A stretch of 64,000 nucleotides of DNA from Nematocida parisii ERTm1 (Eukaryota > Microsporidia), in assembly GCF_000250985.1 (NCBI RefSeq), contig NW_013524652.1, forward strand, positions 1 to 64,000, read 5' to 3'. This document shows positions 1,942-48,940 of the stretch, piece by piece; the stretch's first letter is position 1; every line of letters begins with the position of its first letter. Both the position numbers and the translations under genes were made by a program. Below the pieces are notes generated by a model. That model saw only the letters and a list, made by a program, of their open reading frames with translations, did no database searches and was not told where the DNA came from.

Positions 1942-3637
1942 CTAATTAACGATCTTTTATTTTGATATTTATATTTTAATTTAGAGGGGTCTTTCAACTA
2001 ATTGGTTATTGCTTACCTCTTAACGAACTAATCAAATACGGTTCTTCGTTATATTGATTGATCAAATTAACACTGTCTAATTAATTGGCCAGTTATGTAG
2101 TTGGTATACTGTTTGATTGGTGTTTACAGTATAGCAGTATTTACTACAACTTTCAAAGTTTATATAAATAAGGAAATAAATAGAAGATGCTCCCTACGCT
2201 GCTTCTTTCTTTTAAACTTCTTCTGTTTCCTACTTCTTCTTACATCTCTATGCGGCTATTTATAACCCGAATATTACAGATCCATCCATACACATAAGAA
2301 TTTAAGAATAGCTGGTTGCTTATGCCCGCTTGTATGTCATTAATATACTACAAGTGCCTGCATATATTCTATATATTATGTACCATGTTCTACTGATCTC
2401 TTTATGCCATCTTGTTCCATTCTATATATGGCCTTTGTACTACTTTTCGATTCTTCTGTCTTTTTCTCTTTTCGTTCCTTTTCTTCTTATTTTCTTATTT
2501 TTACTATTCTGTATAAGAAAAAGTACAATACATGAATTCAATATGTAATGTGTACACTAATAATATTTTTATTTTTGTAAAAAATAAATAACTCGAATTT
2601 CTAATAAACTTATACTTGTACTATATTTTTTACTTTATTTCCAATACCAACAAACAAATCTAATAACCCGAAATTCTCAAGTGTACTCAGATGCCCCATA
2701 GATCTTTATACTACTGAATCGTATTACATAGGCCACTTCTCACTGGCTTGGGATAGATATTTAATTTCTTCTTCTATATTCTTTTAATTTTAATTTTTAT
2801 ACTAGAACTACTGCTGCATGTTAGTATATGGGCGTGCAGAACATCTAACACAAGTCAGTTTTCCCTTTTTGAGTATAAAATAACGTGGGAATAGCTAAAT
2901 CTGAAATTTAATAAATACCAGAAGCTATTATATAGCTCAATTTGGCAAGATATCACAATAATAACACATAATATCATAGATTCGTATATAAGATATCAAG
3001 ATGGCAGCTGACATCTTTTTAAATTTTGATGTCACTACTTGCTTCAGTTTCTCTGTACGAGTGAATGCCACTTCTGAAGTGCACACCATATGCACATATG
3101 GTATATGTGTGTCCGCAGAGAACCAATACTAAAAATATAAATATTTCTAATACAGAAAGAATAGAAAATGCAAATAAAATAGAAGCCATTTGTCAAAGAA
3201 GCATACATGAACAAGCACTGAGTATTTACCTATTTGGTTAAATGGCGAATGTATTTATTATACAATAGAAGACACCTACCTAGTGGTAAGGCTGTAAATA
3301 TAGATGTTTACTGTGCACCATTAAAAAATACTTTTATACTCTATTACACGTGTATATATTTAATTTTTACCAAACTGTATAGATCTGGTGTGCAGGCAGA
3401 TGTAGCATAGTTTAAGATAAAGACGTATAGTGTGGACCTTCTACTGCAGCTATCAGATGATCTTGGTGTAAGACAGTATCCCATGTTATTCATGGTTAGT
3501 CTGGGGTTTAATGCATTATTGCTTTCTTCTATTTTCTGGACATGCACTACTTAAATATCCTAGGAGTAATTTATGAATTTTCATGTTATATCGGGCTATT
3601 TTACTTGATATAATTAGATGGCGAATCATTAGAAAGG
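1942..3637. other. Intergenic region, no gene supported
   Basis: AT-rich. It holds two exact copies of the intergenic decamer (ATAACCCGAA at 2262-2271 and 2663-2672) and a one-base variant at 2588-2597. Two small inverted repeats lie next to each other: CACTTC-T-GAAGTG at 3069-3081 and ACCATATG-CA-CATATGGT at 3085-3102. The small open frames here have no coding character that I can see. Confidence 0.6.
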
Positions 3638-5719
3638 CTATGTGGATTCTATAATTTTAAAATTATTTCCATTTTTTATAAGCTTGCATTTAAAATTGGC
3701 AGAATCATTACTTCGGGTTATATATGCAGCATAGGATTCCAGAGCATGCTCTTCATCAGCAGTTTTAGGATTGTTTTTAGCTTTAGTAAAAGCAATATTT
3801 GAGAAATATATCTCTTCAAGGTCTGGCATGTTGGTATTAAACATAACAATTTGGGTTATATCTACTGTGACTGGTTGGACTAAAGACACTAACTGCAGCC
3901 TTCTAATCTTATTATGTTTTGTATATTTTAGGATTTGGTCATAGAACATGCTAATTATGGTGCTTTCACTAAATTCTTTAAGCGAATTCACAAAATACAT
4001 TTCATCAATAGTGTTGATAGCCGAGAATGGAAAATCAATACACCGAATGTAATTAAGTAAGATGGGCTTGGCCAAAGCAGCTGATTTGGCATTAATATTA
4101 AGACAAGTATGCTTACTATTTATGGAAAACATAAATTTAATTGAGTATATCCAGACATAGTCTACTTTTTCTGTAAATAAAATACACATAGTGCACGCAT
4201 GTCCCTTCTTTGGAATTACTTTGCACAATCCTAAGTCATTATATAGCTTACTGTTTATGTAAACATTAGTAGGAGAAATATAATCCCCCACAGTTTTATT
4301 GTTCTTAATCACATCTGCATATTGGACTGGCTCAATTTGCCCTAAAACAGGTGAGTAATCTGGTAGACTTATTGGATTTAGATATTCAATATTTTTTTTG
4401 ATCTCATGCACGTCCGTTAGATCAAAATCGTCTTTATATGAGTAGAAAATCCTGTCCATAATTAGCTTTTGAAGCGCCTGCATTTTTTTGAGAAATGCAA
4501 AGTCTGGATACCCCGAAATAACTATATTGTTAAGAGTAAATGTGGTTATATTCTCTAAATTGGCCATGCTATTCAGCCCTTCAGTGTCTATGAAATCAAT
4601 ATCGGATATATCTATTTCTTTGAGAGAGTGACAAGAGTTTACCCCACTTAATATCCAGGTCACTTTCTTTTTATCAACACAGCATAGTTTTAGTTTTTCT
4701 AAATTTTTTGGCAAACACAATTCTAACTCTGCATTAGAGCTTAAAATAGACCCCATGTAAAAGGAAAGTTCTTTTAGATTATTAAAATCATCCAATACAT
4801 TTAGTGTATCTGTATAAACAACCAGGTTGTCTAGCATAAGTTTTTTGGCCGAGAAAAATATCGCATATTGATTAAATACACTTTCATTGGGCCCAAAGAT
4901 AAATTTTTCTAGTGACAAACAAATATTGCTCATCTCACGCGGGTTATAGTATGTAAGAATTGCATATTTAATGGAAGAAATAGATAACATTCGCATAGGA
5001 TATAAAAGAATGATGTTTTTAATATCATTTGAATGAACATTGTCTATATCTATGGAAAATTCTTTGCCGCATGCATGCAATACTTCCCACAGTGTTTTCT
5101 TTTCTAGTTCTCCTGTTGCTCTAGTAAGTTTAACTACAATTTCATTTTTATATTTAATAATTTCATTTATGGCTTTTTTATCATTATAATGCGAGGTTTT
5201 AAACAAGTGTTTATTTTTTCTAAAAATACTTTCTAGAATCCCCAGCAACTCAATTTCTTCTTCACTATATGTTAAAGCATAATCTATGCCCTGTGAAGTT
5301 TCTACTGCTAGCCTCTGATTTATTATGTGTTCTATATCTAAAATCTTGTCCATGCCCGCGTTTTCTTGTTTTATTTGTTTTTCTGTAGTAGTATTATATT
5401 CACTAGACACACTTTCTGGATTAAATGCTGTTTCCAGAGGCAGTGCCAATTCTACCATAGACTCAATAGTTGATAGATCTTTTGTTTTCGATAGACTTAT
5501 TTCTGCATCGGAAGAATCAATTGTATTCGAGTGGAACTGTTCTATTCTCACAGAATTGCTGCTAACGGCATTTACTGATATAGAGTCATCGCTGCCAGCA
5601 GCATCGCTGTTTTCTAACTTAAAGAGCAACTCTGCATCCGCAGCAAGTAATGTGCTCATCCCTGCCAAACATCCAATTACATATAAAAATAGCAAAGTCC
5701 TTATATTCACCCTTTTCAT
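3638..5719 (-). CDS. Secreted leucine-rich-repeat-like protein, paralogue of 11067-13241
   Basis: 693 residues from an ATG at 5719. The N-terminus (MKRVNIRTLLFLYVIGCLAG, then an AADAELL stretch) is a signal peptide. About residues 25-130 are acidic and Ser/Thr-rich. The rest has regularly spaced leucines and isoleucines resembling irregular leucine-rich repeats, for example LEKLKLCCVD, LKEIDISDIDFIDTEGLN, LENITTFTLNNIVISG and LQKLIMDRIFYSY. The same blocks occur in the same order in the gene at 11067-13241, so the two are duplicates. LRRs usually bind proteins; the partner here is unknown. The upstream 50 bp is also conserved with the paralogue. Confidence 0.85.
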   Translation of the reverse strand: MKRVNIRTLLFLYVIGCLAGMSTLLAADAELLFKLENSDAAGSDDSISVNAVSSNSVRIEQFHSNTIDSSDAEISLSKTKDLSTIESMVELALPLETAFNPESVSSEYNTTTEKQIKQENAGMDKILDIEHIINQRLAVETSQGIDYALTYSEEEIELLGILESIFRKNKHLFKTSHYNDKKAINEIIKYKNEIVVKLTRATGELEKKTLWEVLHACGKEFSIDIDNVHSNDIKNIILLYPMRMLSISSIKYAILTYYNPREMSNICLSLEKFIFGPNESVFNQYAIFFSAKKLMLDNLVVYTDTLNVLDDFNNLKELSFYMGSILSSNAELELCLPKNLEKLKLCCVDKKKVTWILSGVNSCHSLKEIDISDIDFIDTEGLNSMANLENITTFTLNNIVISGYPDFAFLKKMQALQKLIMDRIFYSYKDDFDLTDVHEIKKNIEYLNPISLPDYSPVLGQIEPVQYADVIKNNKTVGDYISPTNVYINSKLYNDLGLCKVIPKKGHACTMCILFTEKVDYVWIYSIKFMFSINSKHTCLNINAKSAALAKPILLNYIRCIDFPFSAINTIDEMYFVNSLKEFSESTIISMFYDQILKYTKHNKIRRLQLVSLVQPVTVDITQIVMFNTNMPDLEEIYFSNIAFTKAKNNPKTADEEHALESYAAYITRSNDSANFKCKLIKNGNNFKIIEST

Positions 5720-5766
5720 TAAAAAATAGAAAGCCTTAGATATTTATATCTGTGTAAACATCAGTG
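5720..5766 (-). promoter_or_regulatory. Promoter block shared with the LRR paralogue
   Basis: The 47 bp before this start and before the paralogue at 13241 both read, in plus-strand order, ATTAAAAA, then TTAGATATTTATAT, then CATCAGTG. Read toward the gene, this is CACTGATG, a TATAAATATCTAAG box, and an A/T-rich leader into ATG. Conservation between diverged paralogues suggests a promoter, or that the duplication carried it along. Confidence 0.55.
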
Positions 5767-6139
5767 CTTTATTATTACAAGTTATATAAAACTGATATTA
5801 ACCACGTATATACCTGTAATTGTGATATATCTAGATATAACCCGAAAGCCGAAGTTACTGCACTGTAGCATTGTATGCATAAATCACTCTAAGTATATGC
5901 AGCAAATGCAATGAATATATTTTTCTTTATATTTAGGCGTGGTTTAATTGGTGCTTTCATCACACTAGATTCTAGCACCAATTTTTGAATTTATTTATTA
6001 GAATAACTTTTACTAAAGACCAAAACACAAATATACGCAAACAGAATACTAACCCGAATTGTTATACTCCAATATGCATAATATATACTGGATGCCCCAA
6101 ATAAAGAGAGCATTAATTATCTATATAGAAGAAATGAAA

Positions 6140-6196
6140 ATTGTAAGGCATAAATAATATTTTATTTTTAATAAATTATGTATAGTTCACAAAAAA
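6140..6196 (+). repeat. Dispersed ~60-bp AT-rich element, copy 1
   Basis: Core TGTAAGGCATAAATAATA, then TTTTATTTTTAATAAAT, then TAGTTCACAAAA. Near-identical to copies at 19702-19763 (plus) and 52264-52330 (minus). Confidence 0.7.
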
Positions 6197-6743
6197 TGAG
6201 CAATATATTAACAAAAGATATATCCATGCGTGTATCTTATACCAACTTTGGCTGTTATATGCATACACAAATAAAAATAAAGATTATTCAATCTCATATG
6301 CGCATCCATGATAATACTTACACTTCTAAAGTTACTTGTTATGTTATATCTTATAATTTATTGTATATGCCCCTTTATATAGGAGTACTCTATATTATTT
6401 CTTCTGTTTTGACAAAACGCAATAACATTACTATATTCTATGCCATGTTATTTATTCCATTACACGCATCCAATAACAATATAATCCGAAAATTTACACT
6501 AAAAATCTTGCTCTATGTATCGTAATATAAATTCATAGCCAGAGTTGTTTTCTTAGGAAAAGGCACTCTTAAACTTAAACTTTTATTTAATTTGTATACG
6601 TGTTTATAGACCGTATAATCAATTTAATTTATGTTGATGTGTTGTGTCACCAAATATTTCTGATTTAATTTATGCTATCATGTTCTTCTGAAACTTTTCT
6701 TTTGGATTTGTATACTGTCTTTATTTACAATAACCGTGCATAA

Positions 6744-6790
6744 TATGCAAAGGATAAATAACATTTATTTTTAATAAATTATAGCATTAG
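6744..6790 (+). repeat. Dispersed AT-rich element, diverged copy
   Basis: ATGCAAAGGATAAATAAC followed by ATTTATTTTTAATAAATTAT. It keeps the core of the element but loses the TAGTTCAC end. Confidence 0.45.
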
Positions 6791-7187
6791 CTTACATAAA
6801 ATAAAATTATTTTTCTTTTAGTGCCTCTTTTGCCAATGCATCTTTCTCATGTTATATCATTTTAAACACCCGAATTTCGAGCTTCGCAGCTTATATGAAC
6901 CTTTTATACCAAGTAAATCGCTGTATAATATCATGTATTTGTTATTTTATGGCGTATTTACAAACCTCTCATATATTAAACTATTTATCCTGCCCGTTTT
7001 AGCATTCATGGTGTCTATAATTTCTGTACTAATGGCAGTGCTTCTGCTTATAACATATTTATAACGGTATTTTTGCCTACTAGACTCTATAGAAAAATAG
7101 GCACTACTTTTTATTTTTATTCCAACTTAAGAATCGTACTTATTTGTATTATATTTCGGGCCACGTCAATTTTGATAGAAATAAATC

Positions 7188-7197
7188 TATATAAGAG
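7188..7197 (+). promoter_or_regulatory. TATATAAGAG box before truncated gene
   Basis: The same decamer precedes the relics at 7834 and 22940, and a variant (TATATAATAG) precedes the intact gene at 8553. Spacing to ATG is about 18 bp here and 30-33 bp in the other copies. Confidence 0.5.
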
Positions 7198-7215
7198 TTT
7201 TTAGCTTTATTATGC

Positions 7216-7623
7216 ATGAAAGGTAATAAAACAACACACGTTAAGTACCAATTAGTAATATACGCAGTATATGTGGTAGGAATAATCTTCACAAACATTA
7301 GATTAGTAAAGGCATCTATGGTACCAGTCAACGCGCCAGCAGCAGAAACAATACTCACCCCACAATCACATATACATAAAGGGTCAACTAATGTTATTAG
7401 TGATGTGAATCCAAATCCAAAAGCAAGTGAAAGAGAGAATGCCATTAAGCGCTTAAAAGCCTTGCTAGATACATCAATAGAAAGGTATGAAGATGGCGAA
7501 TATATTAACAGCAATGAAAAGTCAAAAATAAACTCAAGAAATGTTAGACAAATATATTTTGAACAATATTCTACTATTGAAAAAACAGAACAGCCCGCAT
7601 TCAACTCTGTAAAAAATAAATAA
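7216..7623 (+). pseudogene. Truncated copy of the 8553-10418 gene
   Basis: An open frame of 135 residues whose N-terminal half parallels the long protein at 8553-10418: a short basic leader, a hydrophobic stretch (YAVYVVGIIFTNIRLVKASM, against SILVVGIICTNVRLIKASM), then a VPVNAP/IPANAP match and an RE-rich region ending with RNVRQIYFEQY against RNVRSPRETHS. It stops where the intact copy has about 490 more residues. The stop is followed at once by the sequence normally found upstream of the family promoter, so the body of the gene was lost by deletion. It could still be expressed as a small signal-anchored protein. Confidence 0.6.
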
Positions 7624-7636
7624 TTGTTTTTATTGG

Positions 7637-7720: not shown

Positions 7721-7790
7721 ATATATATGTGTGCATCATTTATGATATGAATACGCTTGTAGCATTCATAAAAGATGGGGGAACAGGAAC

Positions 7791-7833: not shown

Positions 7834-7974
7834 ATGACAAATAGGAGTTCACACTTACGAAGAAGAGGAACCCCCCGGCTGTTTTTAATAAATTCGGGTT
7901 ATATTGCGAATTGTGGCAACACCACCACTCAAGCGCGCAGGCCCAAGATCGATCCTCCAATGCGCTTTTTTTAG
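7834..7974 (+). pseudogene. Relic 5' end of the 8553-10418 gene
   Basis: The first 15 codons (MTNRSSHLRRRGTPRL) match the intact copy's MTNQNSHLQERGKPQL. Similarity ends at a TTCGGGTTAT copy (7893-7902), after which a GC-rich island begins. The frame runs to a stop at 7972-7974. Because this copy has ACG where the intact gene has an upstream ATG (8541), the family start is most likely the second ATG, at 8553. Confidence 0.65.
7893..7902 (+). promoter_or_regulatory. TTCGGGTTAT motif at relic/island junction
   Basis: Exact copy of the intergenic decamer. It marks the point where similarity to the 8553 gene stops and the GC-rich island begins. Confidence 0.5.
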
Positions 7975-8522: not shown

Positions 8523-8552
8523 TTTCGGAAATTAATAAAGATGAAATTTAAG

Positions 8553-10418: not shown

Positions 10419-11066
10419 TATCAAGTGTTGTATACTAAGACTAACATTAGTATCGTAATACATTCGGGTTATCTGAATGTTTACATGAACATGACAGTAT
10501 AAATTAAATTGATTATACGGTATATAAATACGTATTCAAAATTCAATAAACATTAAAGTATCTTAATGACTTTTTCTAAGAAATCAACTAATTGAACTAT
10601 ATTCACATAAATAGAATCTTATATGAATAATCTGTTTTAAACCCGAAAAACAGATTGCACAGTTTCTTATATTGCATTTGCACTAAATATATTCACTTAA
10701 TAGAAATCTCTATTTCATATCATATAACAAGCTAATAAATATTTTACACGGCATGCTTATTAATAGTAATAAAGCTGTTAAAATCACAGCTTGATTTGTC
10801 TTATTATGTGTGTTTCCCTGCCTTTACTTGTAACATTCTACATTTATATACTCCATTATCCTTTTTTTTCTTTTCTTCTTCTATTTTATTTTTAAATATA
10901 AACTGCTTGTAAATAAATCCATTCATGTTATTATTAGCAGTACTATACACTTTATTTTAAAAGTAAAATATTTATTAATTATACAACAATATTATAAATA
11001 GTCAATAGCTGTGGATAAACAGAACAACAGGCAGTTTAACAGCAACTAGTGAATATTAAGGACAAA
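10419..11066. other. Intergenic region, 3' flank repeat
   Basis: Holds TTCGGGTTAT at 10463-10472 and, at about 10485-10526, AACATGACAGTATAAATT followed by AAATTGATTATACGGTATAT. That second sequence recurs at 22675-22718 and, reversed, at about 6600-6632. A TTAAACCCGAAA variant lies at 10637-10648. No gene seen. Confidence 0.55.
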
Positions 11067-13288: not shown

Positions 13289-13957
13289 AATTGCTAGTAT
13301 AGAATATATAAATCAGGTGTTATGTGTATTTACCTAAACCAGTTAGCAAATATAATGTATAAATCACTAGTATCTTGTGACATTATATGCATAAACCTTC
13401 TCCATGGAGGTGAATAGTGTTTTTAGATGGTAGAACTAAGTATATTTGGACTATTTCGGGTTATAGATTTGTGTGAATAATTATTGTTTACATCACATTT
13501 GATGAAATTGATGCTTTTTGATTATATTAATTGAAATAACTCTTTCTATACATTATTTTTAAAATGAATTTTCAACTATTGGTATAGGGTATAAAGACAC
13601 TCAAACTTTGGTGTGATCTTTTAACAATGTTAGTGTAATTAACCACCCGCACAATACAAGAAGTAATTTCATCCAGCAGACCAAAATTAAAAATATTCAT
13701 CTAGAGAGTGATTTTTGATTTAATTATATAAATCGTGAGGCATGCTTCTACATGCACTGAAAATAGTACATAATATACACACATTTACATCAACAAATGT
13801 ATGGATTAATGACATTTTCTAGAATTATATGGGATTTGCTTATTTTGTAGAGGAGTTTGTACACCAGCATATTTTGAAAATTGGATATTAAAGCTGCATT
13901 ATTGTTATCTAAATGATTTTACTTTATTCATATATGGAATAAAATGCTGAATAAAAA
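13289..13957. other. Intergenic region
   Basis: Contains one exact TTCGGGTTAT (13455-13464), about 490 bp before the start of the next gene. Nothing else recognised. Confidence 0.5.
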
Positions 13958-17545: not shown

Positions 17546-17803
17546 ATACTAATGGCACAGAAAAAATAAAAAGTATTACTAGAGACAGCCAATTGAAGCA
17601 CTAACAATTTTCTCTATACTACCAGAAAGCAGAGTAAATAACTAGCAGGTGTTCTGCTAGGGCCAGTATATAAAAACCAGCACCAGCCACATAAGTTAAT
17701 ATTTATTAAAGCAAGCAGGCTGCGTCTCTACTTGGATTTATTTAGAGCACGCCGAAATGTCCTTAACCATCCTTTAATAGCAATACAATGAAGAAAGAAC
17801 AAA

Positions 17804-17921
17804 AAGTGCAGCACTCTGTGTTCCCACGCGGTCTCCCATCGCAGTACTATCAAAGCTGTCACGCGCTTAACTTCAGAGATCGAACGGGTTCTGGTGTGTA
17901 CGCAGGCATATGGCCGCACAT
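17804..17921 (-). rRNA. 5S ribosomal RNA
   Basis: The minus strand carries the 5S landmarks in order: GTGCGGCCATA at the 5' end, CCCGTTCGATC, GAAGTTAAGC (plus-strand 17865-17874), GATGGGAGACC (plus-strand 17831-17841) and GTGCTGCAC at the 3' end. The ends pair (GUGCGGC with GCUGCAC) to form helix I. The length of about 118 nt is typical. A run of five T residues follows the 3' end (plus-strand A run at 17801-17805), as expected for RNA polymerase III termination. End coordinates are good to within about three bases. Confidence 0.95.
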
Positions 17922-18373
17922 GCATATTCCATGCCCATGGGTTTTCTGCCCGTGCATATTCTATTCTACAATAATAAAGTGTTTTTTATATGGCAGTGCT
18001 CTTCTTCTATATAATAATTGTAAATGTATGTATAGAAAGATGCATATTTTTATGTTTAGTGCATATCCTTTTCCTTTCTTTTAAATACTTACTTTAGTGG
18101 CCTGGAGTGTCTTGGGCTATCTAGAAAGCAGTAAAGCTTGAAATTAATTGCCGTCTGAATATAATCGCTGGTTGTAATGCGTACTATTGTAAGCAGAAAG
18201 GACAGTAGATCTTTTAGTTTCTTCTATTTCGGGTTATATTCTTCTCTATTGTGTTTCTATATATATCTGCATAAAGAATTTATTTAAGGACTTTCTGTGC
18301 ACATTATAGGATAGAGGTGTGATCGGGGTGATTTTTGGCCAATTTATTTAGGATTGTTTATAAATATATAGAA
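17922..18373. other. Spacer upstream of 5S and of the 18374 gene
   Basis: Just upstream of the 5S gene are ATGCCC and TGCCCG words (17930-17955). An exact TTCGGGTTAT lies at 18228-18237, 137 bp before the next start. The open frame at 17788-18084 is mostly the antisense of 5S and is not a gene. Confidence 0.6.
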
Positions 18374-19024: not shown

Positions 19025-19796
19025 ATTGTTTCTTTTCTTGGCCTAATATATTGTAGTAGAAGAGCTGATCTTTGATTATTTAATAATAAAACTGTAACAT
19101 ATGAGAAAATAGCAATAATAAGTTTTCTCGAGTTATTTCATATAAAAAACAATTTAAAAGAATATGCCGCTATGCCAAAGACTTTCAAAACATACGTATA
19201 AAATAGATTGTGTAGCTTTAATATACCCTAACTTGAATTCTTCCGTGGTGTTTCTGGAAGAGGTTAAATTATTGTAATGGATGGTTAATGGTCATTTTTA
19301 TAGCACATTCTAAGATAGGCTAGGTGTTTGCTATGTTTTTTCTCTATCCTCTCTGTTGTGTATATTCGGGTTATATTTTTAGTTCATTCTAAAATAATTT
19401 GAAAATATGAAACTGTACTAGAATGTAAAAAGCTCTTTTGAGAAAACACATTTTTAGACGGATTAAATATTATTTGAGTTTTAGGATTTTTACATAAAAA
19501 TAATATAAGCAACTTTAGTACACTTCTATAAGCTAAAAGGAAAAATAGCAAAGCATAAATAAATCCAATCGAAGTCAATAGGAAACATAATAAGATAACA
19601 TATAAAGTGCCTGTTATATAAAACCGTACGGCAGATTATAGTAAAAAGAATAATCTAATAATTCGGGTTATATAATAAAACTTATAAATACACTATGTAA
19701 TAATATGTAAGGCATAAATAATATTTTATTTTTAATAGAACATAGATAGTTCACAAAATATAAACACACTAGTGTATAAATAAATGGTCTAGCTAC
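19025..19796. other. Intergenic region with motifs and repeat
   Basis: Contains TTCGGGTTAT at 19365-19374 and 19662-19671, and a good copy of the dispersed AT-rich element. No gene seen. Confidence 0.55.
19702..19763 (+). repeat. Dispersed ~60-bp AT-rich element, copy 2
   Basis: ATGTAAGGCATAAATAATA, TTTTATTTTTAATAGA, then TAGTTCACAAAATATAAAC. It lies beyond the 3' end of the 19797-22493 gene. Confidence 0.7.
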
Positions 19797-22588: not shown

Positions 22589-22598
22589 TTCGGGTTAT
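22589..22598 (+). promoter_or_regulatory. TTCGGGTTAT motif upstream of 22493 start
   Basis: Exact copy, 96 bp before the ATG of the minus-strand gene. It is also the start of sequence shared with 10463 onward. Confidence 0.45.
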
Positions 22599-23030: not shown

Positions 23031-23662
23031 GTATAACTACTAAAAGATGATCTGTCAATGTACTAGCTCGTGCGATGATCTAGCCAAAACAAAAGGCCGG
23101 GATCGCAAATTAATAGCCCAAAATTCAAAATATTTAAGCAGAAAGCATACTTCCAATTCACAGGGAACTCCTTTTTTATTAGAAATCAGTTTATTACAAA
23201 AAATCTTGGAGTATCGAAGCCATACTTCAGAGGCAGGTCTAGCAAAGATATGCCATATGGACTATGAGCCTGTGCGAGCTTAGACTGCCCCACTAAAAAT
23301 AATAAAGAGTTTAATCCTTTAACTATCTTGTGCTACTTAGCAAAACAGTAATAGCACTACCACTTATGCGTATGCCCGAAATAAATAACATTTATTAATC
23401 GCCAATTCTAAGAATTCAACTAATAAAATGTAGTTTAAAACAATGGTGTTTATTATATTGTTGTTATTCTATATAGTTTTATATTTAAATTTATACTTAA
23501 TTAGCACTATATAACCCGAAACTAAATTATTATATAAATAGCCACAAAAATTATCATGTATAAGGCATAAATAATATTTTATTTTAATAGAGTATGCTTA
23601 TATTACATCATGTAAAACAAGTGCAAAATTATTCTTTTATATTTCTCTTAAAAATCTATGCA
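23031..23662. other. Intergenic region
   Basis: A 78-codon plus-strand frame (23047-23283) may be random or part of the decayed gene copy; I do not support it as a gene. ATAACCCGAA lies at 23511-23520 and a TATGCCCGAAATAA variant at about 23371. A partial dispersed element follows. Confidence 0.45.
23561..23600 (+). repeat. Dispersed AT-rich element, partial copy
   Basis: TAAGGCATAAATAATATTTT followed by ATTTTAATAGAGTATG. The TAGTTCAC end is missing. Confidence 0.55.
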
Positions 23663-25210: not shown

Positions 25211-25968
25211 TCTGATAAATAAATTTTTTTGCTATTTATAACGTAGTATTTTCTATAAAGTACCTATGCTTGCTGTGTATAAGAGAATCCTGCAGCGCAT
25301 CATACACAAGTAGTGTATTTAGTATCATACGAAAATGTGTAAGACCCCTTATTTTCTCAATTAGAAATTTTCGTAAAAGCTAAAAAATAAAGTATACTAT
25401 TAGCGTATACTATAAGAAAATAAAAACCCATTAAACAATTACGTGCATAATATTCTATTGAATAAATAATATACCTGGCGACATTCAAAATATCACGCTG
25501 TTTGAGTTAAATTAAATTATCTAAGTTATAATCATTAGCGATTAATACAAACCTATCTTAATGCATATCTTTATTTTAAATGAAATTTTTCTCTGTATGT
25601 CTTCTTCTTTCTCTAATCCTTTTATTTTCAATTTTAGTCATATACATGTATTTAGAAAATTTGGGTTATATATAGTGCTTAGCTTAATAGTTTGGAAAGC
25701 CTTTCTATCTATTGCTGGATTTATGCAGTGATTTCCTATGCATTTGTTAAAAATATGCTAAGTACATATAAGCTACTAAGCAAGTATACTTTGAAATCGC
25801 CCGATATAACCCGAAATAAATATTAGTTTGAAGAGAAGCGGAAGAAAGGCAATATTTTCAGAAACAGCTCGCTATTCTGCTTTTTGAGTTCTCTAATAAT
25901 ACACATATACATACAACTTCCTATACTTATATAAAAAGACGGCAGATTTTTATAATTTTTGGAAATTT
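25211..25968. other. Intergenic region
   Basis: Exact ATAACCCGAA at 25806-25815 and a TTTGGGTTAT variant at 25660-25669. No gene seen. Confidence 0.5.
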
Positions 25969-26467: not shown

Positions 26468-26477
26468 TTCGGGTTAT
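26468..26477 (+). promoter_or_regulatory. TTCGGGTTAT motif next to a start codon
   Basis: Reads ATAACCCGAA toward the minus-strand gene. It is the closest placement to any start codon in the window. Confidence 0.5.
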
Positions 26478-27420
26478 ATCTGCATTAGCCGAGACTAAAG
26501 TTTTTGAGGTGTATAAGAAGGCATGCCCGCATGGGTTGCAAATATATACACCAATTAGAAATTCATTTCTTATTCTATATTCAGATATGCATGGGATTTA
26601 ATGCTCTAAATTGTGTGCAGTAAATTAGATCAGAATTGAAAATTAATTATTATACAAAAGTGAAATATCTGTTGATTAATTCATTAGTACTATTAATCAT
26701 AAAATGTAATTGTCTCATTATCAAATTACGAAAAAAATATTCTAATATAATACCAATATTTGAGTATGGCTCTGCTCTATAAAACAAAAGTAAAATATGC
26801 TTTAACTAAAGAATTTGAAATTTAAATTAGTAGCAAAATAACTCTTCTTTGACTAAGCATTATATTATACTACAGAAGATATTATAGTTTTAGTTGTGTT
26901 TTCTTTTGTTCTTCTACTATATTATCTAGCTAACCAAGAAGAAATTAAAATGCACAGCATGTTCTAGAGAATACTTTTCAACTATTTCGGGTTATAACAT
27001 AGTAATATATTTAGTACTTTTTATACCAATAGTATTTACTGCCATACTATTAAATATAGCATAAACACCCACAATATATACTGTACAACAATATAATTTT
27101 AAGTTCTTAAGATCTAACATCTCTCTACTTGGTTGATATACTACTTTGAGATAGAATATTTTGTACTACTAAATTTTACTGAATTTATTTCGGATGACCC
27201 GAATAAACTCCCCTAAATATTGTGTACTGTCTTTCTTGCCGGTTCTTCGCCCTTTCTCTTTAACTCTTTTCTTTTCCTTCTAAGACCAAACTTAGTTCAT
27301 TTAGGATTTTCTTTTATTTTTCTTAATTTGTCTATGAAAGGTCACGGGGTATTCAAATGGGAATGATTAAAAGAAAGTTTTCTGCTTTTCTAAAAGAATT
27401 TTTTAGGATTATTACAGGAG
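26478..27420. other. Intergenic region
   Basis: TTCGGGTTAT at 26986-26995 and a TGACCCGAA variant at 27195-27203. The 27320-27420 stretch is T-rich, with AATTTTTTAGG 22 bp before the kinase start. No gene seen. Confidence 0.5.
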
Positions 27421-28418: not shown

Positions 28419-29533
28419 TTATTAATGTGCAGTTTACCTATCCACTGCCTTTACTATTCAAAAATTACTGGAATCTTGGTGTCAAAATGTTACAAATCAT
28501 ACCACACACATATCTATTATTCATTTCTTCATGTGCTTTACATGGAAGTGATTCAGCAGATGCCAAGTGTCCATACGTCAATAAATAGTAATTATGCCAA
28601 TATTTCATGTGTTTATCCTAATGTATTAGATTGCATCTATTAAATGCCTATAATAGCATATGTAATAAGCCGCGAAGTGCGGCAAATGGTATTTTGGCAC
28701 ATCTTTTAGATATATATTGCTGGAAAATGTGTTAAAAAGCCATTCACTCTCCATCTTTTTGCTGGATATCTTAAGACACTTCTTGCATCAATTGATGTGG
28801 ACGATGGCTTTATCATTATCTTATAGAATCCAATATGCAGTGTAAATCCTACTTTACTTCACAAAGCACTATCCTTTTGCGCTAAAGAAGTCTTATTGGC
28901 AGAGTAGACTATTAACTATATAACCCGAATATTGGAAAGCAGTGTGGTGTATATATTTGTATAATTGATAGGATTTAATATCTCTTATTACATGCCATAT
29001 AAAATACAAAGTCTAAATATGCATGCACTCTCCTAAAAATAAAGAATGACTGTGTGTGAGAAAAGGATTTAATACAAGCACAAATAATTTTATGTGCTAA
29101 GGTATTAGGTTATTTCTAACAGCAATGCTCTCTTCATAGCATTGCACATCCTCTTCTATCATCAAAAAAGGGATTAAAACTTCGGGTTATTTTAATTTAA
29201 GCTACTCCAAGTAATTATTATACAGTTTATATAAGAGTAGAGAAACAATACAAAGTTAGTAAAAATGATCAAGAATGCCCGAAGACGCGCACGACTTTAA
29301 GCACATAAAATTATAAGCGCTTAAATGCAGAACAGCTAGAAATATTGAACAGCTTTATAAAGCACAGGGATATATAGACTAGAAGAATGAGAGAAAAGGG
29401 CACAATACTAATAAGATAACTTATGAAAACTCTAAATTAACAAAATCTAGTAGGCTTTGTGATAGAATGTTAAAAAGGCGCACCATTATACAAAGCACAT
29501 ATTTATTCAACAAAAAACGCAAAAAGGCTAAGC
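28419..29533. other. Long intergenic region
   Basis: Contains ATAACCCGAA at 28920-28929, TTCGGGTTAT at 29181-29190, a GCCGC-GAAGT-GCGGC hairpin at 28669-28683, and a TATATAAGAG box at 29228-29237 followed 28 bp later by an 11-codon basic frame (MIKNARRRARL, 29265-29300). No larger gene seen. Confidence 0.5.
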
Positions 29534-30794: not shown

Positions 30795-31365
30795 ATACTA
30801 AACCAAATATACAGCTTGTCTGAATTATTGCACTATACCAATAGAATGGCCCAGTATAACTCAGAATATATTTAAAGTTTCGGGTATTCTTTTATTTAGA
30901 AATAAATTCAGTATTGCTTTAATTTTAAATACTACTAAAAAGTTCAAATACTAATCTGAGAGGCATAGCAAATATTAAGAATCTTTGCTAGAATGCTTTT
31001 TTGTTCTTATGTACTAGAAAGGCTTTTATAAAAGGAAATTAATTAATGAACTAATTATATCTTGAAATAATCTGAAATTTCGAAATAAAACACCCACTTA
31101 ATTATATATACATTATATACCTCAAAGCCCGAGAGAATCCTTCTTAGACAATGATGAATTTAATTTTTATAACCCGAAATTATTTACATCCTATTGGACT
31201 AAAAGCAGTCTGCCTGGAGTAAACAAGCCTAAGCAGACGGGAGATAAATCATAAAACCCAATAACTGCGCAAACACTAAAAATAAAAACAAGCAAAAACA
31301 AAGAAAAGTCCAAAGGACGGGATAAACCAGTCCTCGGATAGAAAAGTATCCGTGATTCTGGTTTA
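30795..31365. other. Intergenic region with hairpins after uS8
   Basis: ATAACCCGAA at 31169-31178 and a shorter TTTCGGGTATTC at 30877-30888. The right-hand third holds the stem-loops described separately. Confidence 0.5.
31208..31364 (-). other. Three stem-loops downstream of uS8 (3' UTR or small RNA)
   Basis: Plus-strand coordinates: AAACCAG 31324-31330 pairs with CTGGTTT 31358-31364, with an inner CGGATA/TATCCG stem (31335-31340, 31347-31352) and a six-base loop. GTCC-AAA-GGAC lies at 31308-31318, and GTCTGC 31208-31213 pairs with GCAGAC 31233-31238. The first begins two bases after the uS8 stop codon. It could be a structured 3' UTR or a separate small RNA. Confidence 0.4.
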
Positions 31366-42728: not shown

Positions 42729-43325
42729 TTATTTTTCATCCCTTTTATTTTTCATTCCTCTGTCAAACCATGCTTTGTCAACCCACATAAATAACTGCTT
42801 GTCCTTTGCTAGGGAGGTTTCCTCCACACAGTCTGAAAGATCCAGGGCACCAACGGAATCTATACCCAAACACATCCCTTGGTTGTATATCTGAAAGGCG
42901 TTTGTTTTGCGGGTTAAAGGAAGCGAAAACATAAAGTAGTTGTTAAAACTGCCCTTTTCTGGAGAAAGTGCTAATCCTGCACGTGTCCCCAGGTCCTTTG
43001 TATAGCTAAATACACACTTGCCCATGCCATTCTGGCTTTCCGTGCTTCTTTGACACCACTTGTCTGCAGCAGATATAGTATGGTATGTGAGATCTTTGAA
43101 GCTCTTTCTTGTTACCTTTAGCTCTAAAGCATCATCGACATCGTTTGTCACAGACAATGCATTTTTTACTCCATTTGCCCCATTTATTGGAGAGTTTGTT
43201 ATGTATCCTCTTCCTCCTATGTTGTATAGATATCCAGACTGATTGTTGGCAAAAATGACTTTCATTCCTAAGGCCTTTTCAACACACAGCGCTCCTAGAA
43301 TAATAAGAATATAAAATAGTTCCAT
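42729..43325 (-). CDS. Secreted beta-trefoil-like protein, array member 2
   Basis: 198 residues from the ATG at 43325. Signal peptide MELFYILIILGALCVEKALG. The mature protein has SGYLYNIGGRGYI near residue 30, FMFSLPLTRKTNAFQIY, then CLGIDSVGALDLSDC and QLFMWVD near the C-terminus. The spacing CLx(I/V)...G.L.L..C...QLFxW is like the QxW repeat end of ricin-type lectins. It is the smallest full member and shows the core unit: signal peptide plus one domain, no linker. It may bind sugars or host proteins; neither is shown. Confidence 0.85.
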   Translation of the reverse strand: MELFYILIILGALCVEKALGMKVIFANNQSGYLYNIGGRGYITNSPINGANGVKNALSVTNDVDDALELKVTRKSFKDLTYHTISAADKWCQRSTESQNGMGKCVFSYTKDLGTRAGLALSPEKGSFNNYFMFSLPLTRKTNAFQIYNQGMCLGIDSVGALDLSDCVEETSLAKDKQLFMWVDKAWFDRGMKNKRDEK

Positions 43326-43920
43326 TTCGAGCTACGTGTTAGAATGATTATATAGCTTAAACCAGTGTTTCAGGCATAAAACACAGTATAGGCATACGCT
43401 ATACACTGCCAGAAATTTATACACGCGGTGCTGCGTCTTGCAATACACACTCCTTGCTACTGCATCATTTGATAGATTGATTAAATCTGATTAAATCAAT
43501 CTTCTATCAAAAAGCAGATCAAATTTATTTTGTAAGTTTATTATACACACTCAGCATGACCCCATTTAAATTATCTCTATAAAATATATGTTTGTATATA
43601 GAAAGAACTGCTTTGCTTCTTAGTATTTCATTAAAAATATTGTTTAAACATATGCTAAATTATTCTGATTATATGTGTAACTATACGCATGTACTTGCGA
43701 GCTTATTCAAATAGAAAAGATATTTAGAGCATTTTAAAATCTACTTCTGCTATGGCTTTCTCAATATATTTATAAATAAGCTTCATTCTTACTTATTATG
43801 CAGCAAGAAATATTCTAAGTCTCTGGCATTCAATAAAAGCAAGAATTTGTGGCACACATGCATAAAATATAGCTTAAAATAAATTAAGTGTTTTATTGTG
43901 TATAATAATCACATGCTCCC
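43326..43920. other. Intergenic region with a long inverted repeat
   Basis: Apart from the inverted repeat at 43468-43513, nothing recognised. Read toward the 43325 gene there is a GAAACACTGG...TATATAATC stretch, like the promoter block of other array genes. Confidence 0.5.
43468..43513. repeat. Imperfect inverted repeat (hairpin)
   Basis: TTTGATAGATTGATTAAATC on the left and GATTAAATCAATCTTCTATC plus AAA on the right can pair, with small bulges. It lies between two array genes. Confidence 0.5.
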
Positions 43921-44616
43921 TTACTTCCAAACTGTATTGTCGTTTGGATTATCTGCAATGTAATATGGAGTAGATGGGTTCTTTGACTGATCAAGTGTTT
44001 GCATTGGGTCGTAGTTTTTAGAGAACAGACCATCATCAACCCATACAAATAGCTGAGTTGCCTTCTTAACTATGTCCTCATACTCGCACTCCTCTATTCC
44101 AAGCTCTCCAGTCTCCCGAACTGCCAAGCACCTTCCTCCGTTAAATATTCTAATAGCATGGAATGCAGGCAGCACTGCAGGAGAAAAGAAAAATTTAAAC
44201 TCTGCAGCAGGACTAAACCTTTCCATAGTAATAAGGCCTTTCTCTCCGGTTTTTATTTTCATGGCTGGGCATCCTAGATATTGCTTTGTTTTTCCTGATC
44301 CATACTCATCCTGTGCACTACTGCATGACTTGGTGTCATGCTCTTCTGCAGATAGAATCAAGCCGTAGGCAGCCGATCCATCTCGCACAATTCGAATATG
44401 CATTCTTGCTGCCATTTCTTTCTTATCATCTATCCCCACATACTGGGCATCTTTACTGATGGAGAATGAAAGATATTTTTTTGTCCCAATATTGTACAAG
44501 CGACCTATTTTATTTTCATTAAAGAAGGCAATTTCTCTTTCTTCACCAAGCGCACGGGCCCAAGACACTAAGGGTAGTATAACACATAAAAACAAAAACT
44601 TATCATGCAAATTCAT
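43921..44616 (-). CDS. Secreted beta-trefoil-like protein, array member 3
   Basis: 231 residues from the ATG at 44616; a longer reading would start with TTG. Signal peptide KFLFLCVILPLVSWARALG. Conserved positions are IGRLYNIGTKKYLSFS near the start, FFFSPAVLPAFHAIRIF, CLAVRETGELGIEEC and QLFVWVD. A Pro/Asn-rich tail follows the domain (about the last 35 residues). Cysteines in the middle (CSSAQDEYG, YLGCPAM) suggest an extra disulfide loop. Confidence 0.85.
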   Translation of the reverse strand: MNLHDKFLFLCVILPLVSWARALGEEREIAFFNENKIGRLYNIGTKKYLSFSISKDAQYVGIDDKKEMAARMHIRIVRDGSAAYGLILSAEEHDTKSCSSAQDEYGSGKTKQYLGCPAMKIKTGEKGLITMERFSPAAEFKFFFSPAVLPAFHAIRIFNGGRCLAVRETGELGIEECEYEDIVKKATQLFVWVDDGLFSKNYDPMQTLDQSKNPSTPYYIADNPNDNTVWK

Positions 44617-45243
44617 ACTGCATAAAGAATCAAATGTTTTATATAAATCTTGCAACGCTGTATCACATAGTTACACATCAAATGGTTTCAAACAGATGAT
44701 GATTTCATTACATAAACACACTACAGCTTTCGGTACTCGCTATACTTTATGCTACACACCCATGCACACCGAAAATTCTGCTGTTTTATTATTTAGACAT
44801 TTTATGCTTTTTCCTCTATATTCATATCTGCCGGCTTCATTTACAAAAACTTCTTTCTTTTACATATTTAAAACTCACAAACAGAAGAATTATCTATAGA
44901 AGTATTATAAAACACAATTGTAATCAATACTAACCAATGCGCCATCCATTAATTATAATGGTTTTTTTGCAGCTCATTAATATTAATGGGGATTGTTTGA
45001 AATCTACTCTGTGCAATATATTACTAGCTATGTAATGTAGAGCATATAAATGTGTTCTAATATACCTAAAATAGCCCTAGAAATGCTATTTTTTATTGTA
45101 AATAGTCTGAAATAGACCTAAAATAGTATATATTCATGCATAAACTATAAAATAAAAATGTTCGCTGCTACACCAGCTATAAAAGTACTATGAAATTAAA
45201 ATATTTACTTTCAGATTATTTTTGTCTGCTGTACTACTTAATG
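44617..45243. other. Intergenic region
   Basis: No decamer copy. Read toward the 44616 start there is GAAACCATTTGATG then TTTATATAAA, a looser version of the array promoter block. No gene seen. Confidence 0.45.
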
Positions 45244-46191
45244 CTAAAAGCCCGGAGGAAGATATTCACTGTTTGTATTGTTGTTCTTGGGGGTAGAGGA
45301 ATTTTCATCCACATTTAGTAGTTTTTTAGCTTTTTCTGTTGCTTTTTTAGGTAACTCTGGCTCGTCATAATATCCCAGTGGCTTTCCATTAATAGATACA
45401 ATAGAGTCATTGTTTATTGCAACAACTGCAGTTGGAACATCCTTGTTTAGAATTGGATCTGGATGGTTCAAAAGATATGGATCTTTTCTACTAGGATGTG
45501 CATCTGGGTTATAGTACATCCGAGTGTCTGGGGTGTATCCCTTTACACTTAACGTTTGTTTTTTTATCGGCCCTATCGATATTCTTCTAATGACTTTTCG
45601 AGTTACTATAATGTTTTCATTATCGGCCAGCCACCTAAACAACTGCCTTGCATGCCTTTCATCTGGGCCAGAAACACAGTCTTCTAGAATGGCATACCCT
45701 GTGTCTCCTATAGCCAGACACTTGTTTTTAAGATATATCTTGAAAAAGTTCTCTCTGGTAATTGGGGGAGAGAAGGAAACCCATGCATTCGAGTCTGCTG
45801 TATCTGTTGTCATTCCAATGTGCATCTGCCCTTGATTACCAATTAACCCTATTGTTGGAGTTCCATAAAATGGGAAGTCAATATGCGTAGTGGAGGTTTT
45901 CTTTTTAGCATTTAAAATTCTAGGATCTGCTGACATAATAAGGCTGTATGTTGCACTATGATATTTTGTTCTTTGTATTTTAAACAATGAGGCTATTTTG
46001 TCGGACTTAGTTCCCTTTATCCACATGTATTTATCGTGTGGTGCCCTTGCCCATGAGAGAAACATATGGCTTCCTACGTTGTATAAATACCCTGCGGATC
46101 CTGCTGCAAACGCAGGGAAATACTCACACATAACGGAAACTAGCCCAAGTATAAAAATAAAAGCGATCTTAACGCATCTCGGCATAATCAT
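45244..46191 (-). CDS. Secreted beta-trefoil-like protein with C-terminal extension, array member 4
   Basis: 315 residues from the ATG at 46191 (a TTG lies two codons upstream; another ATG at 46185). Signal peptide CVKIAFIFILGLVSVMC. The domain shows AGYLYNVGSHMFLSWA, VSFSPPITRENFFKIY, CLAIGDTGYAILEDC and QLFRWLAD, ending near residue 190. About 120 further residues form a basic, Pro/Asn/Asp-rich tail (for example YYNPDAHPSRKDPYLLN) of unknown role. The tail is not found in the neighbours. Confidence 0.85.
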   Translation of the reverse strand: MIMPRCVKIAFIFILGLVSVMCEYFPAFAAGSAGYLYNVGSHMFLSWARAPHDKYMWIKGTKSDKIASLFKIQRTKYHSATYSLIMSADPRILNAKKKTSTTHIDFPFYGTPTIGLIGNQGQMHIGMTTDTADSNAWVSFSPPITRENFFKIYLKNKCLAIGDTGYAILEDCVSGPDERHARQLFRWLADNENIIVTRKVIRRISIGPIKKQTLSVKGYTPDTRMYYNPDAHPSRKDPYLLNHPDPILNKDVPTAVVAINNDSIVSINGKPLGYYDEPELPKKATEKAKKLLNVDENSSTPKNNNTNSEYLPPGF

Positions 46192-47264
46192 AAACAAAAG
46201 ATGCTGTTCTGGGTTATATCTGATTGTGTAACCTGTTTCATTCTGATAAAATGTTTGAAAACACGCATAGTTTCATCTTATTAAAACAGCCACGCAAAAA
46301 TCAAATCATATTATACTCCCGATTAAATAACCTGAAAATATAATAGCCTGCTAATATATTCTTTATTTGTATACCGTATTTCTCTATTTGATTGTTTTTA
46401 TATTTAATTATGGCCCAAAAATCAAATTATGCGAGCTATGAGTAATACAAGAAAGCCCTAATCCTATGTATCCGTCTTCCTATATTATATGCAATTTACA
46501 AGCCAATAATCTGCTTTTATATATAGAATTAAAAATAGTCTTTTGTAATACATCGTCCAATTTACTTTGAATATATTTATTATCCCAGAATAATTTTTTG
46601 TGTGCTTTCTTATTTTTTTGCATGTTTTTGCACCCATTTTTGCTTTCAAAGTAGAACAGCAGCACATTCTTTGTGGGGTTTAAATTCTTGATTGTATGTA
46701 ACTATATTTTCACCTTTTGTATTTCTTATACACAAAACATTATATTTAATTTCTTTTATTTCAAAGTATAATTATCCTGGATATAATCTGAAATAGACAA
46801 AATACCACATACTAGCAAATTCACAAAACCCGAAATTATAATTAAACTATACTCCCCCATTATTCAAGCGCTGCGGTAATATTTATAAAATTTCGGGGTT
46901 CTAGTTGTAAATACAGAGTCTTATTTGTCATAACTAAGTTTTTATGTTTGTCAAAAGCTAAAACTATTATATAGCCTAACTTGTAATCATGCCCGATTCT
47001 AATAAAATAATCTAAATTATATTTATTATCACCCATCCATGCCTTATTAAGAACAATTTCTACTCTAAAACCGCGCATGGTATTCGCGGGCCCCAAAATA
47101 ACTAACAATGATCATATTAGAAATAAATTAGAAATAATTATGTGTTGTTTATTGGTGAATATGAAAAGGTCTAAAGCAGCTATTTTATTACTGGTTACTA
47201 GATGTGGCTATTTTCTGTTAGAAGGGTGCTTAGCATATCCACTAGCAGTATTTATATAGAAAAT
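46192..47264. other. Intergenic region with possible small gene
   Basis: TTCTGGGTTAT (variant decamer) at 46207-46217, upstream of the 46191 start, and AAAACCCGAAA at 46824-46834. A 72-codon minus-strand frame is listed separately. Confidence 0.45.
46860..47078 (-). CDS. Possible small protein or gene fragment
   Basis: 72 codons from an ATG at 47078 (MRGFRVEIVLNKAWMG and on). Alternating hydrophobic and polar residues suggest beta strands (YIIVLAFDKHKNLVM). There is no signal peptide and no array signature. The 5' end is GC-richer than its surroundings. It may be a relic of a larger gene or may not be coding. Confidence 0.25.
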   Translation of the reverse strand: MRGFRVEIVLNKAWMGDNKYNLDYFIRIGHDYKLGYIIVLAFDKHKNLVMTNKTLYLQLEPRNFINITAALE

Positions 47265-48605
47265 TCAATAATAGTCAGCGTGGGCCCATCTTAAAATATG
47301 CTGGCCTCTTTTCAGCGGAACAATCCCTTTATAATAGTTTCCTTGATCTAAATAGCTCATATCCGGGTGGAAATACTTATCTGTTGACGAAACAACTATT
47401 ACTGGATTAACTTCCTCTGTTTTAACATATCTATTATTAGATTTCTTATAGGGGCTCCATCTACCAATGTTTTTATAAAGAATGCTCTTTTTATTTGTTG
47501 GACTGGGGGGTTCTCTGTTGTTTTTGCTTGGGGCCTCTTTCCTATTCTCAGCTTGTGGTTTGAGTCTATTTCCAGCTTGTGGTTTGGATCTATTCTCAGC
47601 TTGTGGTTTGAGCCTATTTCCAGCTTGTGGTTTGAATCTATTTCCAGCTTGTGGTTTGAGCCTATTCTCAGCTTGTGGCTTGAGTCTATTCCCAGCTTGT
47701 GGTTTGGGTTTATTATTATCCTTACCTTCATTCCTATTTTCATTTATGTTTTCATTTTTATTGGCATTTCCTGTTTTATTTCTTTTGATAGATTGCTTAT
47801 TTACTGCGTTTTCATAGTAGGCTGCTTTTTTATAATATGGATTGTTGTTCTTTTGTTCGTTTATATCCAATCGCATGCGGTTTCTACCATTTGAGTATGC
47901 GTTCCTGTGCTCTGAAATCTCGTTTTCATCTATCTGTAGATAGTCTGGCATTCTCTTCATGTTATATGTGGTTTTTTCAAAATCATCCATTCCAATCCAT
48001 AGCCAAAGATCATCTATATACTCCTCGTCTGGGGTTTGTGTATCCTTACAGTTCTGATAATAAACACTTGCACTAATGCCCCCAGACATGCACCTATAGC
48101 TTCCCATAAGAACCCGAAATGCCGGCCTGGTTCCTGATACAAGTGTGTCTATCAGTACAGACTGCTCAGGTAAATTTTTATTGTCATTCTTGCTCAAAAC
48201 CACCCGGTTGTCATTGCTCGTGCCTCTTTGTAGAATATACCTCGCACTATTTAGTAACTTGGGAAGCTTTGAATCATTTGTAATAATTCGTGTTAATGGC
48301 GCCTCTTCTCCCGATACTTCTTTGCTTAGTTCAAAAACAATGGCCTGCTTTGGATCTGCAGTCATTCTTAGTGAAAGATATCCTAAATTATCAGAATATC
48401 TATCGATGGCCATAAACTTTTTTAGTCCTATATTGTATAAATAACCAGGCTGGTTAAAAACAAAGAACTCTGAATCCATTATCTTTTCTCGTAGCGATAT
48501 AAATCTTTCATTTGCTGCCATAACCGGCACTCCCTGAAACATGCACCCCAGTGCTAAAATAAGCCTGGCAGCCCAAGATACAGTGACTTTTTTTATTTTA
48601 TGCAT
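47265..48605 (-). CDS. Secreted beta-trefoil-like protein with long repeat tail, array member 5
   Basis: 446 residues from the ATG at 48605. Signal peptide LILALGCMFQGVPVMA. The domain has PGYLYNIGLKKFMAIDR, a conserved hydrophobic block (AFRVLMGSYRCMSGG), a C...C pair and LWLWIGMDDF in place of QLFxW. After about residue 220 the protein becomes Asn/Lys-rich, with an eight-residue repeat (L/F/S-KPQAGNR and LKPQAENR, about eight units). It ends in a basic, Tyr-rich region. The repeat region is the kind of module that changes quickly by slippage. Confidence 0.85.
   Translation of the reverse strand: MHKIKKVTVSWAARLILALGCMFQGVPVMAANERFISLREKIMDSEFFVFNQPGYLYNIGLKKFMAIDRYSDNLGYLSLRMTADPKQAIVFELSKEVSGEEAPLTRIITNDSKLPKLLNSARYILQRGTSNDNRVVLSKNDNKNLPEQSVLIDTLVSGTRPAFRVLMGSYRCMSGGISASVYYQNCKDTQTPDEEYIDDLWLWIGMDDFEKTTYNMKRMPDYLQIDENEISEHRNAYSNGRNRMRLDINEQKNNNPYYKKAAYYENAVNKQSIKRNKTGNANKNENINENRNEGKDNNKPKPQAGNRLKPQAENRLKPQAGNRFKPQAGNRLKPQAENRSKPQAGNRLKPQAENRKEAPSKNNREPPSPTNKKSILYKNIGRWSPYKKSNNRYVKTEEVNPVIVVSSTDKYFHPDMSYLDQGNYYKGIVPLKRGQHILRWAHADYY
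47523..47715 (-). repeat. 24-bp tandem repeat in 47265-48605
   Basis: Encodes alternating KPQAGNR and KPQAENR units. The plus strand shows CCAGCTTGTGGTTTG and CTCAGCTTGTGGTTTG variants. Confidence 0.75.
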
Positions 48606-48921
48606 ATGTAACTTTTTCTTAAACGCTTTATATTTACTCTACTTGTAACTGTTTTATGATATATACCTATAGCCCTGCATCGAATTGCCATGGACCTCCT
48701 TTTTTTTTCTTTTCTTCTAATGTTTGACATTTTTGGTATAGCATATATCCATAAAAATTTATCTTTGAACAAATCGCGCATTGTTCTAAAACAGCCTAGC
48801 CCACTGGCCTCAACTAGTATATTTAATATAGAATCCAAATTTTTATAGCAGGTTATATGATAAAAACAATATTATTTAAATACTGTGCATATTATATCTA
48901 ATTAATCTAAAATTACCAGTA

Positions 48922-48940
48922 TTCGGGTTATTCGGGTTAT
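48922..48940 (+). promoter_or_regulatory. Two overlapping TTCGGGTTAT motifs
   Basis: Exact copies at 48922-48931 and 48931-48940, sharing one T. This is the only exact pair and the only exact site in the array. They lie about 320 bp before the 48605 start. Confidence 0.55.

Follow-up and report, generated by a model that had tools for sequence, protein, structure and literature searches.

The consensus of Reb1, a yeast general regulatory factor, is TTACCCG and carries a CCCG core that occurs at many genomic sites. In yeast, TBF1 is a telobox general regulatory factor that acts on TTAGGG sites and, in the available text of the source, is connected with nucleosome exclusion, insulation and the regulation of transcription (PMC6410037). 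In microsporidia, CCC- or GGG-like signals have been described immediately upstream of the start codon, and the regulatory signals presented in the accessible part of that report are short motifs beside the start codon (PMC2803860). Telomere repeats reported for the phylum include TTAGGG, TTAGG and TTAG, and none is given for Nematocida in the accessible portions of the two sources (PMC12449221, PMC13174016). The present analysis concerns a decamer, TTCGGGTTAT (reverse ATAACCCGAA), which recurs in the genome of Nematocida parisii ERTm1 (an assembly of 3,978,357 bases in 11 contigs). The stretch analysed in most detail, referred to as the window, spans positions 1 to 64,000 of contig C7 (NW_013524652.1). 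The chitin synthase of this microsporidian parasite of nematodes shares 99% identity with the one from Nematocida sp. AWRm78.

The decamer is a real, genome-wide, telobox-like word. It differs by one base from the telomere-type (telobox) word TTAGGGTTAT and stands one base off the telobox TTAGGG(TTA). The word TTAGGGTTAT is itself rare, with 5 copies against 82 of TTCGGGTTAT in 318 kb of unique DNA, a set in which a few loci had been chosen for carrying the motif. With the Reb1 sites it shares a CCCG core and a high number of locations; the resemblance of its AACCCG core to TTACCCG, pointed out in a sequence-only reading of this DNA, holds to within one base, but the word contains TAACCCG and not TTACCCG itself. 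The likeness to TBF1 sites lies in a TTAGGG-type word placed at many genomic positions and in a candidate reader of the telobox Myb class, as far as the available account of TBF1 goes (PMC6410037), whereas the third base is C here instead of A, a promoter preference was not seen and the putative reader is only weakly similar. CCC/GGG content and a location in noncoding DNA are common to the decamer and the microsporidian start signals, as these are described in the accessible text (PMC2803860). A description of the decamer, or of a comparable word in Nematocida, did not turn up in the literature searched, the coverage of which was incomplete, and the search terms were also without a match in two Nematocida papers (PMC10393165, PMC9762603).

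Within the window, 20 exact copies were found, against an expectation of 0.06 and a maximum of one in 100 dinucleotide shuffles. The sequence-only reading had listed 19 copies and put the chance expectation at well under one; all 19 coordinates proved correct, but a twentieth copy at 3712-3721 (+) had been overlooked. One-base variants, estimated at about ten, number 17, which gives 37 matches at up to one mismatch against 2.6 expected. In the whole assembly, TTCGGGTTAT occurs 700 times (356 on one strand, 344 on the other) as compared with 8 copies of the reversed word, and 1802 matches with up to one mismatch compare with 284 for the same control. The decamer also scored highest among intergenic 10-mers (54 observed, 0.8 expected) in a 284-kb sample. 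This sample was composed of the window, C7 64-114 kb, C1 300-390 kb and the starts of nine contigs; that of C9 consisted of N throughout and was dropped. Loci L008, L017, L018, L019, L023 and L024 are partly N, and L017 is so entirely. The genome-wide count proposed as a check thus lies far above base composition and the word is much denser between open reading frames (ORFs), rather than at the composition expectation or equally dense in coding DNA.

The ORFs were called mechanically, with an ATG start and a length of at least 100 amino acids. On this basis, the 284-kb sample carried 54 copies in 105.5 kb between ORFs and 11 copies in 188.8 kb of ORFs, an 8.8-fold excess in density for the DNA between ORFs (p = 7e-15); the ratio is lowered by the counting of masked N as intergenic length. 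The intergenic preference is strong, yet the decamer is not strictly intergenic as had been claimed: 12 of the 66 sampled copies overlap ORFs, and the copy at 3712 lies within one. As the calling was mechanical, some of the coding copies may sit in false ORFs or in false N-terminal extensions. The 46 sites placed between two called ORFs were distributed over divergent (15 sites, 1.16/kb), convergent (9 sites, 0.78/kb) and tandem gaps (22 sites, 0.51/kb), the density being higher in divergent than in tandem gaps (p = 0.017). Gaps of at least 700 bp contain 38 of the 46 sites, which is above their share of the length (p = 0.0008), and the sites in tandem gaps run with the genes in 9 cases and opposite to them in 13. 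The region from 31.2 to 48.9 kb of the window had been described as empty of the word; it holds no exact copy, an absence with p = 0.045 if the intergenic density of the sample is applied and p = 0.001 if that of the first 31 kb is taken instead, but six one-mismatch variants are present there and only 4.6 kb of it is intergenic DNA.

The arrangement of neighboring copies was analyzed with the 9-mer TTCGGGTTA, searching the whole assembly for pairs in the same direction with a gap of 0-30 bp. The 42 pairs found were concentrated at spacings of 9 (17 pairs), 10 (11 pairs) and 11 bp (6 pairs), with 8 at other spacings. From a 9-mer total estimated at ∼800, about 0.24 pairs would be expected for spacings 9-11 combined, where 34 were observed, and 2.3 for the other spacings. 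Inverted pairs were limited to one genome-wide; everted pairs, and triple arrays with no more than 3 bp between units, were not found anywhere in the genome. Such spacing is the look that an asymmetric unit set side by side on one helix face would be expected to have, and local tandem duplication could be an alternative source of the pairs.

In the 318 kb of unique DNA, one-mismatch copies numbered 105 against 22 expected. The mismatches were unevenly spread over the positions of the decamer (p = 0.007). Changes at the third G showed no excess, TTTGGG, altered at the third base, was the variant ranking next in frequency, and at position 3 a T replaced the C in 17 copies, as compared with 4 copies showing the mirror CpG change (p = 0.007, with Markov backgrounds of 1.8 and 0.8 not subtracted). 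Neutral decay of copies fits the genome-wide number of one-mismatch copies and fails on the position spectrum; as decay is expected to be even and symmetric, contact with a protein is the simpler account. An A/T content above that of the local background marked the three bases 5′ and the one base 3′ of the word (p 0.0003 to 0.004), with a weaker A/T signal at two positions 9-10 bases past the end of the word. Apart from this bias, no sequence shared between copies was seen at the 24 flank positions tested, indicating that the copies were not spread as parts of a longer repeat and arguing against a transposon or miniature inverted-repeat transposable element remnant as well as a dispersed repeat.

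Taken as a site of contact, the decamer is probably bound by a regulatory protein. There is an even chance that the reader belongs to the telobox Myb class, of the TRF/TBF1 kind. An abundant sequence-specific DNA-binding protein, likely a telobox-type Myb, would recognize TTCGGGTTAT, the preferred site of such a protein having perhaps changed from TTAGGGTTA to TTCGGGTTA, a one-base shift. This protein would sit on single sites, or on pairs 9-11 bp apart on one helix face, and could act in the manner of the yeast general regulatory factors, excluding nucleosomes and partitioning long intergenic stretches. Some genes would probably be influenced, perhaps including the one that encodes the protein itself and a gene for a SWI3-like chromatin remodeller.

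Myb proteins, the presence of which had been put forward as a check, do occur in the genome, with 10 matches at six loci (L033, L037, L038, L039, L040, and L041). The gene at L039:643-1680 (contig C8) codes for a 345-amino-acid protein identical to an N. parisii protein. Its single C-terminal Myb domain found its best PDB match, a weak one, in Terfa (E = 0.0074), and the 16 matches at E ≤ 10 include TBF1, TRF1 and a plant telomere-repeat-binding protein. The convergent gap at its 3′ end harbors six sites (three exact and three with one mismatch) in ∼370 bp; TTAGGGTTATTTCGGGTTAC stands directly after the stop codon, four more sites with up to one mismatch lie in the gap, and TTAGGGTTAT and TTCGGGTTAC are found 10 bp apart. 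L038 is a SWIRM/SANT (SWI3-like) gene with seven sites (five exact, the rest with one mismatch) in ∼390 bp upstream (L038:75-463), laid out as a forward pair and one further site followed by two reverse pairs, i.e., facing head-to-tail pairs. By counts in 440-bp windows, these two gaps hold the densest clusters of the DNA examined in this respect, from which duplicate loci and short contig ends were excluded. It is possible, though tentative, that L039 itself is the reader. Among the remaining loci, L033 encodes a c-Myb-like protein, L040 a 580-amino-acid protein with no PDB match at E ≤ 0.01, and L041 a protein carrying PF15963, which we take to be Bdp1-like.

Several observations weigh against this explanation. 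The copies lying wholly within called ORFs number 11 where 0.3 were expected. The density in convergent gaps did not differ from that in tandem (p = 0.27) or divergent gaps (p = 0.42), and no preferred position relative to start codons was seen, as a called start lay at 15 bp or less from a single site of the 46. The latter count rules out a CCC/GGG start signal. A promoter box as the sole role, one of the functions suggested earlier, finds no support, given convergent gaps that are no poorer than tandem ones and the mixed orientation; copies on both strands and in all three types of gap do not fit a plain promoter box. The reader was sought within the Myb family, at the six loci named, the survey being confined to that family. 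The telobox match of L039 is weak, as MYB21 (E = 0.012) and SWI3 (E = 0.029) come nearly equal to Terfa, and homologue searches did not find relatives outside N. parisii. Its single-sequence fold model was poor (mean predicted local distance difference test score of 44), with a helical N-terminus predicted, and a fold search with this model gave no match at E ≤ 0.001, so that a TRFH dimerization domain is at most putative. The link of the two clusters to Myb genes is suggestive and post hoc, because the six Myb loci were the ones inspected.

The behavior of the sites in duplicated DNA is a further point of this kind. In duplicated stretches of at least 120 bp and at least 85% identity overall, within the DNA examined, five exact sites were present and in none of the five was the site common to the duplicate. 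For three of the five, the duplicates agree at 95% or more, and only three of the five are informative since the local flanks of the other two align at 72-88%. A one-mismatch site was common to the C5 and C11 duplicates in one case. The site at 10463 is derived: the three other genome copies with the same flank words read ACATAAGTTATC, ACATGAGTTATC, and ATATGAGTCATC where the window copy reads ACATTCGGGTTATC, a gain of two nucleotides, and 149 flanking columns are identical to those of the closest copy. The change from GAGTTAT in the relatives to TCGGGTTAT may represent one 2-base insertion and one A-to-G substitution, and as a more distant relative at C2:8097 reads GGGTTAT, a stepwise change is possible. 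This is the one polarized gain; two other cases are unpolarized. At C4:2764, two adjacent bases differ from the C3 duplicate within 170 identical flanking columns, the direction of change not being polarized, and the case at C3:457 is weak because the differences between C3 and C4 are generally clustered (92 in 48 clusters). With such small numbers, either a fast-turning-over site under selection or template-directed writing may apply, and the absence of sharing between duplicates, along with one recent gain, is left unexplained by the binding of a telobox-type protein.

A different reader, such as the SNAPC4/c-Myb-like L037, a zinc-finger protein or a replication-origin protein, with the sites marking insulators, terminators or origins, appears rather unlikely. 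The convergent gaps, no poorer than tandem ones, would suit each of these roles, and the core one base from the Reb1 consensus points the same way. L037 (352 amino acids, three Myb repeats) matches Schizosaccharomyces pombe Reb1 at 7e-8, but c-Myb and SNAPC4 match it far better. Moreover, the decamer has 9 of 10 positions in common with the telobox word TTAGGGTTAT, one copy of which lies next to the telobox-like gene L039 with a motif copy 10 bp away, whereas c-Myb-like proteins prefer AAC(T/G)G sites and L033 should do likewise.

It is improbable that the word was written by template-copying repair, for instance by telomerase adding one or two units of TTCGGGTTA(T)(A) at broken ends, in which case the restriction to DNA between genes would reflect purging from coding DNA. 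Interstitial telomeric sequences inserted at breaks, as in mammals, are described in the accessible part of the source (PMC2246262), and the decamer resembles them in that telomere-like units stand at interior sites and are missing from the aligned duplicates examined; it differs in having only one or two adjoining units in a fixed phase. The derived site at 10463, the two-base difference at C4:2764 and the exact sites never common to the duplicates examined are consistent with writing, as are the doublets of 9, 10 or 11 bp, which resemble repeat units, and the decamer itself, which looks like a TTAGGG unit and half of another. TTAGGG telomeres in Mitosporidium daphniae and Hamiltosporidium tvaerminnensis (PMC12449221), and a proposed shortening of the repeat from TTAGGG within the phylum (PMC13174016), are reported in the available portions of these sources. 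The genome-wide one-mismatch excess of ∼826 to 700 exact copies is likewise near the ratio given by neutral decay. On the other side, the phase and length of the word are fixed and triple arrays are lacking, the variant spectrum and the A/T flanks look like protein contact, the gain at 10463 can also be explained stepwise, and the C3:457 case is weak. The contig starts and ends that were read showed no telomere repeat, and triplets of TTAGG or TTAGGG were not found.

A combination of the two ideas, in which telomerase-like RNA-templated repair, its template having changed, inserts TTCGGGTTA(T) as one unit or two at intergenic breaks throughout the genome and a telobox protein of correspondingly altered specificity then uses the marks as regulatory or boundary sites, is quite improbable; if such a self-spreading mark were true, drift of the telomere word would rewire gene regulation. 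That a dispersed repeat left the copies behind, or that they arose as an artefact of assembly, is hardly credible, as the high copy number and the existence of another dispersed element in the genome are set against the lack of shared flanks, the roughly ninefold density between ORFs and the strict doublet geometry.

The copies in the window are listed below.

Exact copies of the decamer in the 64-kb window (gap types follow the called ORFs; the first rows were checked against ATG ORFs of at least 80 amino acids)
Feature	Position	Strand	Context
exact TTCGGGTTAT	2262..2271	-	outside ATG ORFs of at least 80 amino acids
exact TTCGGGTTAT	2663..2672	-	outside ATG ORFs of at least 80 amino acids
exact TTCGGGTTAT, absent from the earlier list	3712..3721	+	inside ORF 3638-5719 (-), the stop end of which is 74 bp away
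exact TTCGGGTTAT	5837..5846	-	divergent gap
exact TTCGGGTTAT	7893..7902	+	divergent gap
exact TTCGGGTTAT	10463..10472	+	convergent gap; missing in the three other genome copies that retain both flank words
exact TTCGGGTTAT	13455..13464	+	divergent gap
exact TTCGGGTTAT	18228..18237	+	tandem gap
exact TTCGGGTTAT	19365..19374	+	convergent gap
exact TTCGGGTTAT	19662..19671	+	convergent gap
exact TTCGGGTTAT	22589..22598	+	tandem gap
exact TTCGGGTTAT	23511..23520	-	tandem gap
exact TTCGGGTTAT	25806..25815	-	tandem gap
exact TTCGGGTTAT	26468..26477	+	divergent gap; ATG 4 bp away (sole site of 46 with a called start at 15 bp or less)
exact TTCGGGTTAT	26986..26995	+	divergent gap
exact TTCGGGTTAT	28920..28929	-	tandem gap
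exact TTCGGGTTAT	29181..29190	+	tandem gap
exact TTCGGGTTAT	31169..31178	-	convergent gap
head-to-tail doublet, two exact TTCGGGTTAT (48922-48931, 48931-48940) sharing one base, spacing 9	48922..48940	+	tandem gap

Other elements were noted in the same DNA. Another word enriched in intergenic DNA, TGTAATAAGT, and its neighbors were considered as a partner of the decamer and rejected, since they belong mainly to a ∼21-bp satellite on C1 (48 of 49 matches). A ∼21-bp minisatellite built on TGTGTAATAAGT occupies L020, L021, L027 and L028 (C1:300-316 kb and 379-390 kb) and is possibly a satellite or centromere candidate. A ∼50-bp dispersed element near TGTAAGGCATAAATAATATTTTATTTTTAATAAATTATGCATAGTTCACA has many copies in the genome, at 6145, 19709, 23562 and 52291 of the window and on other contigs; a decamer site with up to one mismatch lies within 250 bp in 8 of the 13 distinct copies examined, a count that has no control and was not used as evidence. 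The window also contains a 5S ribosomal RNA gene at 17803-17921 (-), the surrounding stretch of which recurs at eight further places with 94-100% identity; the 98-amino-acid ORF at 17788-18084 overlapping this gene is probably spurious. At 56894-57256, a protein with a Mos1/mariner transposase helix-turn-helix domain is encoded.

A word of 700 copies together with a named candidate reader would offer a testable way into chromatin organization in a lineage of extreme genome reduction. If the absence of sharing between near-identical duplicates is upheld in larger samples, the turnover of the sites would be directly measurable. The finding may also bear on how the readers of telomere words gain genome-wide regulatory roles, a scenario under discussion for TBF1 and RAP1 of yeast in the available account of these factors (PMC6410037).

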